A stretch of DNA of 64,000 nt from an uncultured Psychrobacter sp. (GTDB taxonomy: Bacteria; Pseudomonadota; Gammaproteobacteria; Pseudomonadales; Moraxellaceae). Below the pieces are notes generated by a model. The model worked only from the letters and a program-made list of their open reading frames with translations. It was not told where the DNA came from and searched no databases. The stretch lies in assembly GCF_947500265.1 (NCBI RefSeq), contig NZ_CANMRN010000004.1:186001-250000 (forward strand), written 5' to 3'. How positions within the stretch are numbered: the first letter of the stretch is position 1; every line of letters begins with the position of its first letter. A program made the position numbers and the translations under genes. Positions 18,983-21,407 of the stretch are shown here, in pieces.

Positions 18983-19019
18983 AACCAAGCACTGGTAAAT
19001 ACCGGTGCTTGGTTTTTTT
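18983..19019 (+). terminator. Terminator after ppk1
   Basis: aaccaagcactggtaaataccggtgcttggttttttt. Confidence 0.85.
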
Positions 19020-19250
19020 GCGCTCACCAATTGCAAAAGTTACAAACTGACTTGCAACCTCACAATTATTCACATATTGATACGGCAGTACACTGGTGCA
19101 TTACCCAAGGTCATACCTATAATTAATATCAATTCTGACGCTACTTGATAAGTATTGGTTACTCATTTGGGCGTTGGTATAAGTTCAAAATGTATATCTA
19201 TTTAATGTTTCAAAACAATTTAATAAAATCATAAGAATAGGAAATAAACC

Positions 19251-19421
19251 ATGAGTACTACTAACGATGACAATTCAGATATCAAGCAAGCTGCAGAACA
19301 GGTAAATGGTCAGGAAGTTGAGAAGAACTTAGCAGAGAATAAAAAAGTCGACGCCCCTGAATCATTAAGTGAAGAAGAGCAAACACCTTTTATCGATGAT
19401 GACTTACGTACTGATAAGTAA
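19251..19421 (+). CDS. Small acidic hydrophilic protein 1 (56 aa)
   Basis: MSTTNDDNSDIKQAAEQVNGQEVEKNLAENKKVDAPESLSEEEQTPFIDDDLRTDK; below the ORF-track length cutoff; RBS-like aggaaa upstream. Confidence 0.65.
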   Translation: MSTTNDDNSDIKQAAEQVNGQEVEKNLAENKKVDAPESLSEEEQTPFIDDDLRTDK

Positions 19422-19484
19422 TTTCTAATATTAATCACCGACCTAATATACGACAATAATAAATAATAAAGCGAGGGATACGCC

Positions 19485-19751
19485 ATGACTATGCAAGAAC
19501 CTATAGGAACAGAAGCAACAGACACAGAAGAAAAAGTAATCGTGGATGACCCTGCTGCTAATGAGTTAGAAAACCCTAAAGATAGCTATGCAGGGCGCAA
19601 GCACAAGCCTGAAATCGATGGCCCTGAGCAAGACTCACAAGAGACTGACGAAGTTTATGCTGATCCACGTAAAGAAGAGAATCTTCCAGCTGGTGGCAAG
19701 AACGCAGCAGAACTAAGTGCCTACGACTTGAGCCAAAAAGGTAATGAGTAA
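19485..19751 (+). CDS. Small acidic hydrophilic protein 2 (88 aa)
   Basis: No Cys/Trp, D/E/K/P/N-rich; RBS gcgaggg. Confidence 0.75.
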   Translation: MTMQEPIGTEATDTEEKVIVDDPAANELENPKDSYAGRKHKPEIDGPEQDSQETDEVYADPRKEENLPAGGKNAAELSAYDLSQKGNE

Positions 19752-19811
19752 AGGAGTATAGCTAACAGTGTGCTAACCAAATCGACAAAATTATAAATAT
19801 AAAAAGAGGAT

Positions 19812-20144
19812 ATGATAATGCAAGCCAAAGACTCAGCAATAGACAAGACAAAGGTACTAGGATCTGATGATCATAGTGCAATTGAAAGAAATACTACTGA
19901 GAACAAAGGGACCGATACTTTTGATGAGTCTGTTGTCGACTCAGAACACGTAAATGATAATGACAATCCAGCGCGCCAACCAGATCGTCGTGATCAAGAA
20001 GGTAGTACCGCATTTGATGACAATATCAATGAAGATACTGTCGGTAGTGCAGCACCAAAGAGTGAGGGTATTAATGATTTAAATCGTTATGCCAATATTG
20101 ATAATGCACAAACCCGTATTTTAAATCCTGATGAAAAAGATTAG
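19812..20144 (+). CDS. Small acidic hydrophilic protein 3 (110 aa)
   Basis: No Cys/Trp, D/N/E-rich; RBS aaagagga. Confidence 0.75.
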   Translation: MIMQAKDSAIDKTKVLGSDDHSAIERNTTENKGTDTFDESVVDSEHVNDNDNPARQPDRRDQEGSTAFDDNINEDTVGSAAPKSEGINDLNRYANIDNAQTRILNPDEKD

Positions 20145-20216
20145 ATAGGTTTAAATCTCGAAAGATATATAGCGTTTCTTGGATTAGATAAGTAATTATT
20201 ATAGTAGGGAGTACCA

Positions 20217-20417
20217 ATGAATAACTCACATAATGAAAGCGTCAATAGCGATTATAACTTAAAAGATGCAGATGATAATAATGGTATTGTCCCTGATGAT
20301 GCATTACAGAAAGCAAATCCAGCCGCAGCAGAAAAAGCTACGGAAGATCATGATCCGCATAATGTCGCTAAGAGTAACAAACAGTATGACAGTCCACTCA
20401 TGGAAGATAAAAAGTAA
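20217..20417 (+). CDS. Small acidic hydrophilic protein 4 (66 aa)
   Basis: No Cys/Trp, D/N/A/K-rich; RBS taggga. Confidence 0.7.
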   Translation: MNNSHNESVNSDYNLKDADDNNGIVPDDALQKANPAAAEKATEDHDPHNVAKSNKQYDSPLMEDKK

Positions 20418-20442: not shown

Positions 20443-20478
20443 GTATTTGTACATAAATAGGCATTTGTACATAAACAG
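20443..20478. repeat. 2 x 18-nt tandem repeat
   Basis: GTATTTGTACATAAATAG / GCATTTGTACATAAACAG, 16/18 identical. Confidence 0.8.
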
Positions 20479-20534
20479 AAAGGCACTGTGTTTGGTAAGA
20501 GTATATAACTCGTATCAAACACAGTGCCTTTTTT
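20479..20534. terminator. Strong hairpin terminator between convergent units
   Basis: aaGGCACTGTGTTTg...cAAACACAGTGCCtttttt. Confidence 0.85.
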
Positions 20535-20594: not shown

Positions 20595-21407
20595 TTAAGC
20601 AGGTGTACCACTATGAAAACGTAGCTCAGCATCTGGGCTACTTATTAATTCAGCCTCTACTTCTTTAAAGAAAGCGACTCGCTCGTCTATATTCTCATCT
20701 GACAATGTTTGAGCAAGCGCAAGATAATCTTCGAAATGACGACTCTCTGACTTGAGTAGATAACGATAATACTTCGCTAAGCGTTCATCATCGATGACCT
20801 CGGCCAACGCTGCAAAACGCTCACAAGAGCGCGCCTCAATAAACGCCCCGATTATTAATACATCAACCATCGCTGCTGGCTCGTAAGTGCGTTTGTGCTT
20901 TAACATACCTTTGGCGTAGCGTCCAGCACTCAGATATTTCCACTCTTGGCCGCGCTCATTCATGATACCTAGTACTTGCTCGTAGTGCAGCATCTCTTCA
21001 CGTATCAGCTGCGCGAGTTTACGTTGCAAGTCATAAGAGAACTCATAACGAAATATTAAATTCATCGCAGTACCAGCGGCCTTTTTTTCGCAGTTAGCGT
21101 GGTCTTGAATAATCATAGGTAGGTTTTCAATCGCGGCATCTACCCAAGATTGCGTGGTTCGAGCACCTAAAAAGTTATAAACAGGAGATAGGTCTACCTT
21201 TATAGGAGTGCGCAGATGCGTAATATCGATGCTATCTTCTTCAGGCAGCTCTTTTTCAGACAGCTCTTCTTCGATTAGATCTGTTTCGGCACTATTATTT
21301 ACAGTTTGAGAAATATTTTCTTCGACAGATTTTTTTTCGATACTATCGTTATCTATAGTATTTGCTGTTGATTGGAATGTTGCGAGGTCTTGTTGATTGA
21401 TAGTCAT
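20595..21407 (-). CDS. miaE: tRNA-(ms2io6A)-hydroxylase-like (MiaE family) protein with ~70 aa acidic N-terminal extension
   Basis: 'LPMIIQDHANCEKKAAGTAMNLIFRY', 'REEMLHYEQVL', 'GAFIEARSCERFAALA', 'LLKSESRHFEDYL' di-iron ferritin-like motifs. Confidence 0.85.
   Translation of the reverse strand: MTINQQDLATFQSTANTIDNDSIEKKSVEENISQTVNNSAETDLIEEELSEKELPEEDSIDITHLRTPIKVDLSPVYNFLGARTTQSWVDAAIENLPMIIQDHANCEKKAAGTAMNLIFRYEFSYDLQRKLAQLIREEMLHYEQVLGIMNERGQEWKYLSAGRYAKGMLKHKRTYEPAAMVDVLIIGAFIEARSCERFAALAEVIDDERLAKYYRYLLKSESRHFEDYLALAQTLSDENIDERVAFFKEVEAELISSPDAELRFHSGTPA

Follow-up and report, generated by a model that had tools for sequence, protein, structure and literature searches.

Four consecutive open reading frames occupy positions 19251-20417 (+ strand) of the window, the 64,000 nt stretch of Psychrobacter DNA analysed here. 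They encode proteins of 56 (ORF1, 19251-19421), 88 (ORF2, 19485-19751), 110 (ORF3, 19812-20144) and 66 aa (ORF4, 20217-20417), lie 63, 60 and 72 nt apart, and are each preceded by a purine-rich, Shine-Dalgarno-like stretch; number, lengths, gaps and individual ribosome binding sites are all as given in the initial annotation. The same annotation placed the unit between the ppk1 terminator and a strong convergent terminator, and hairpins are indeed found at both borders. The upstream border is formed by the intrinsic terminator of ppk1 (18983-19014, + strand; 14 pairs and a T tail, z -6.0). Downstream, a strong terminator hairpin (about 20477-20533) separates ORF4 from the convergent miaE; it can fold on both strands, with energies of -36.0 kcal/mol (z -9.4) and -35.4 kcal/mol (z -9.5). 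An RNA-family search of the region gave sub-threshold matches only, mostly on the terminator hairpins. The miaE homologue (20595-21407, - strand) has an N-terminal extension, acidic and about 70 aa long, ahead of the MiaE domain (PF06175), which starts at residue 73, and its NCBIfam score of 245.7 bits lies under the equivalog cut-off of 320 bits.

Conservation in Psychrobacter and relatives in other genera

Single-sequence queries (E <= 0.001) against 105 Psychrobacter genomes found ORF1 in 94, ORF2 in 99, ORF3 in 101 and ORF4 in 83. The matches are collinear across the genus and lie at one syntenic place, the interval between ppk1 and miaE. A scan with a profile of ORF3 across 84,980 species, each represented by a single genome, returned 77 loci, all of them (77/77) from Psychrobacter, and all four ORFs are present at 58 of these 77. 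Median pairwise dN/dS is 0.139 for ORF1, 0.129 for ORF2, 0.093 for ORF3 and 0.103 for ORF4, indicating purifying selection on every one of them, and amino-acid motifs are kept while third codon positions vary. Both the homology search and the dN/dS comparison had been proposed as checks in the initial annotation, and both speak for the reading frames. Judged from these alignments, ORF1-ORF4 are real genes, chance ORFs being excluded by the collinearity and the low dN/dS. It is scarcely credible that the ORFs are untranslated, or translated without function, and that the conserved element is instead a regulatory or RNA feature: the stronger conservation of a block upstream of ORF1 speaks for such a reading, but it is opposed by the dN/dS values of 0.09-0.14, by the retention of amino-acid motifs over variable third positions and by the lack of any RNA family match of note in the region.

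The unit is widely kept yet dispensable, because it is missing altogether from one genome (G032), where ppk1 and miaE are 128 bp apart, and because ORF1 or ORF4 has been lost elsewhere in part of the genus. With such losses on record, it can be regarded as useful rather than essential. Another genome (G078) keeps only ORF3 of the four, and in a further one (G040) the apparent absence reflects a contig end that falls inside ORF1.

Outside Psychrobacter, 244 genomes from 15 other genera of the family were searched. ORF2 had no match among them and was found in Psychrobacter only. ORF4 gave two weak matches, both in genus g2 and both with an internal stop, so that convincing matches are, by these searches, confined to Psychrobacter. 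Genus g8 has ORF3 in four genomes (E 2.5e-26 to 3.3e-19), and there the genes run ppk1, ORF1, an acidic protein of another kind, ORF3, miaE, as at the Psychrobacter site. The acidic protein in the place of ORF2 carries the motif EDSVTHQxGxGxTxGxxPxxETPDIFDN (L162 4187-4810, L163 3419-3781, L164 3419-3769, L165 3461-3811), and profile comparison showed no similarity between it and either ORF2 or ORF4. One weak ORF3 match (G343), on a contig of phosphate-transport-like genes in an incomplete genome, was rejected as spurious, and an ORF1 match in g14 (G318) proved to be an unrelated protein.

ORF1 gave weak but repeated matches in g2 (E 4e-4 to 0.02 per genome), a genus that is probably Acinetobacter, given how abundant it is in the family. 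The g2 relatives (L197-L204, L206) are acidic proteins of 116-149 aa encoded at a place other than the ppk1-miaE interval; profile comparison relates them to ORF1 (E 3.5e-6, probability 88%), and shows no similarity between them and ORF4. They are disordered-looking, and their genes adjoin a parA-like or a dihydrolipoamide-acetyltransferase-like gene. A diverged ORF1-like protein (L153, genome G063) reads NPAPFID, intermediate between the ORF1 and g2 motifs. With matches in g8 and distant relatives in g2, ORF1 looks like the oldest member of the unit.

The conserved block upstream of ORF1

The interval between the ppk1 terminator and ORF1 contains an essentially invariant block of 60 bp (19039-19098, + strand), presumed to be the activator-binding platform of the promoter. 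In a set of 30 representatives, each less than 85% identical to any other across 150 bp, column conservation averages 0.94 within the block and 0.46 at flanking positions; the block value also exceeds that of the coding sequence (for ORF2, 0.87 at codon positions 1 and 2, and 0.61 at position 3). At a fixed distance from the block lies a -10 box (TATAAT, 19118-19123, + strand), which reads TATAAT in 20 of the 30 sequences, TATACT in nine and TACAAT in one; a consensus -35 element upstream of it is absent. Transcription would start near 19130. The core pattern of the block occurs in 85 of 105 genomes, mostly as one copy, and the reversed control gave 0; a few genomes have a second core-pattern site with 3 mismatches. 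The block is present once in the source genome, and its upstream half once in each Psychrobacter relative that has it. In G078 a degenerate copy (9/37 mismatches) is found 5' of ORF3. A DnaA-box-like sequence (TTATTCACA) lies within the block, as does an inverted repeat, GTTACAA-N6-TTGTAAC, that is perfect in the genus consensus and degenerate in the window.

AC dinucleotides recur in the block at a spacing of 10 bp, five of them in register (p ~0.002, first-order Markov sequence). Together, block and -10 box look like a dedicated, activator-dependent promoter. One regulator to consider is BfmR, a response regulator that in A. baumannii controls tolerance of desiccation as well as an acidophilic-repeat protein (PMC6181384). 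As a candidate for this unit it is a lead and not a finding, because the AC phasing is OmpR/PhoB-like whereas the RstA box TACATNTNGTTACA (PMC4117788) is matched only weakly (9/12, a score that 5.7% of random 60-mers reach). No BfmR binding sequence was found in the papers searched. The spacing, 10 bp and not 11, rules out a Pho box.

The lack of Pho-box spacing also bears on the idea of a role for the unit in phosphate or polyphosphate metabolism, suggested by its position beside ppk1. This is very unlikely. The ppk1 synteny is kept in Psychrobacter and in the four g8 genomes, but a terminator separates ppk1 from the unit, which has its own promoter block; miaE on the opposite side is equally constant, and other genera have ppk1 without these genes.

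Composition, motif blocks and predicted disorder

The four proteins of the window are acidic and hydrophilic, with 0 Cys and 0 Trp. This composition, described in the initial annotation, holds nearly always across the genus: at the 77 named loci, Cys occurs in 3/69 ORF1, 3/74 ORF2, 5/77 ORF3 and 1/65 ORF4 members, and Trp in two, none, four and none, respectively. Median hydrophilicity (-GRAVY) across the four proteins is 1.37-1.44, and values above 1 are seen in 64/69, 72/74, 75/77 and 63/65 members. By comparison, among 47 non-overlapping window ORFs of at least 100 aa (median 0.26), only ORF3 exceeds 1. Charge-hydropathy analysis classed every member of the four families at these loci as disordered. 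AlphaFold2 modelling, which covered ORF2 and ORF3, agreed in giving no fold for ORF2 (58 sequences; pLDDT 63.5, pTM 0.20) or ORF3 (52 sequences; pLDDT 61.5, pTM 0.22), with the caveat that few effective sequences can hide a real fold. A C-terminal stretch of ORF3 (residues 81-100) is moderately confident (mean pLDDT 84), the rest of the model being unfolded. The disorder prediction called for earlier thus comes out in favour, and ORF1-ORF4 are predicted to be intrinsically disordered. None of the four has a usable match in Pfam, NCBIfam, PHROGs or PADLOC, and a search of PDB sequences with ORF2 and ORF3 gave nothing usable either. By profile comparison these two proteins show no similarity to each other, in line with the initial annotation, which saw no obvious sequence repeat shared by the four.

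Each protein nevertheless has a conserved motif block of its own; these blocks, like the invariant promoter block, go beyond the initial annotation. In ORF1, a nearly invariant TPFIDxxLRTDK at the C-terminus (residues 45-56) follows a SDIKxAAExxDxxxIxxNL segment. ORF2 has a block of about 50 residues (34-83; 19584-19733) around GRKHxPxIDGPxQxSQETDExYxDPRK. The ORF3 block (residues 31-104; 19902-20123) includes SEHVNxxDNPARQPDRRDQ and NRYAxxDNAQxRxL, and that of ORF4 (residues 15-58; 20259-20390) includes PDDALQKxNPAAA and DHDPHNVAK. Outside the blocks, sequence and length vary in all four proteins; ORF3 is as long as 290 aa in one species, and its length varies through a segment that is partly repeated in several. 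In genome G005, a - strand ORF of 165 aa (L051) joins an ORF1-like N-terminal segment to ORF2, a fusion that may hint that both proteins work together. All of this supports the view that ORF1-ORF4 constitute one conserved operon of small, acidic, predicted-disordered proteins.

The conservation of the motifs suggests specific contacts beyond bulk hydrophilicity. The proteins could be binding partners (adaptors, inhibitors or scaffolds) that fold on defined targets via their motifs, bulk protection not being their job. This is a possible reading, only a little less likely than the one preferred below. It would account for the dense, near-invariant block in each protein, with aromatic, Arg and Pro residues included, for the confident C-terminal segment within the otherwise unfolded ORF3 model, and for the recurrence of the ORF1 segment and PFI motif in the g2 proteins. 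However, the unit encodes no obvious partner, in most of the family ppk1 and these genes are not linked, and it would be unusual for one operon to encode four different proteins of this sort.

Possible role and comparison with known systems

Hydrophilins are usually defined by a Gly content above 6% and a hydrophilicity above 1. All four proteins exceed the second value in nearly all members, while ORF1, ORF3 and ORF4 fall short of the first: at the 77 named loci, Gly exceeds 6% in 0/69 ORF1, 42/74 ORF2, 5/77 ORF3 and 0/65 ORF4 members. The KGG repeat profile (PF10685) matched none of the four, nor did LEA profiles at E values up to 1. No KGG protein was found anywhere in the source genome, and the profile matched in 3 of 14 control genomes. 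The earlier likening of the unit to hydrophilins and DtpA therefore stands as regards a small, acidic, predicted-disordered operon, and does not as regards the Gly rule, failed by three of the four, and the KGG and LEA profiles.

The reading tentatively preferred, at somewhat less than even odds, is that these are condition-induced, motif-bearing disordered proteins with a hydrophilin-like protective role, switched by an activator as a single unit. An activator, perhaps a response regulator of the OmpR/PhoB type, would bind the 10-bp phased repeats of the block and switch the unit on in some stress or growth state, such as cold, salt, drying or stationary phase. The single transcription unit would then yield up to four small, acidic, motif-bearing disordered proteins, which would build up in the cytoplasm and have a protective effect resembling that of hydrophilins, their conserved motifs contacting particular cell components or one another. 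This role is favoured by the genus-wide synteny, the low dN/dS, the extreme hydrophilicity and predicted disorder, the rigidly spaced promoter block with its 10-bp AC phasing, the dispensability of the unit, the length variation of ORF3 and the lack of a KGG hydrophilin in the genome. The control of desiccation tolerance by BfmR in A. baumannii (PMC6181384) provides a precedent. Against it count the failure of three proteins under the Gly rule and the lack of homology to proven protectants, and the near-invariant motifs argue against a protectant driven purely by composition. A motif-bearing protectant is placed only slightly above a set of partner-binding proteins without such a role. A stress role stays plausible; the Psychrobacter papers searched, on hydrophilins, disorder and transcriptomes, contained nothing on expression or phenotype of these genes. 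More speculatively, and with rather low probability, a genus-wide set of four mutually unrelated, motif-bearing disordered proteins might act together, for example as co-assembling or condensate-forming protectants, with the nearly invariant 60-bp block as an activator platform of their own; they would then form a stress system particular to this lineage and distinct from the hydrophilins known so far.

Habitats of Psychrobacter impose cold, salt, freezing and drying. The unit is found in nearly every species of the genus, its proteins match no known family, and it may help survival under stress. As a compact, deletable set of four genes under one strongly constrained promoter, it allows a direct test of what disordered proteins contribute to such survival, and the promoter block gives a clear starting point for identifying the regulator. 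It also illustrates that small bacterial disordered proteins can face strong selection at the level of motifs.

The promoter resembles those of the OmpR/PhoB type (RstA box) in having 10-bp phased repeats 5' of a -10 box and no consensus -35, and differs in the use of CACA for TACA, in its greater length and in its single genome copy. The g2 NPAPFI proteins have an IxxAxExxDxxxxxxNL segment and the PFI motif in common with ORF1, but are longer (116-149 aa), carry an extra EGLTDS motif and are encoded by a single gene elsewhere, without adjoining relatives of ORF2-ORF4. LEA and KGG stress proteins belong to a similarly hydrophilic, disordered, stress-linked class, from which ORF1-ORF4 are separated by the lack of a profile match. 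Closest in character are the hydrophilins and DtpA (AbsA) and DtpB of Acinetobacter baumannii, which are likewise small, hydrophilic and predicted to be disordered, the latter two from the same bacterial family; the unit differs in having no match to KGG or acidophilic repeats and in that three of its four proteins are glycine-poor. From DtpA and DtpB it is further set apart, by description and not by sequence, through its four different proteins per operon, their motif blocks and its other neighbourhood, katE being the gene that stands with dtpA and dtpB in A. baumannii (PMC13232832).
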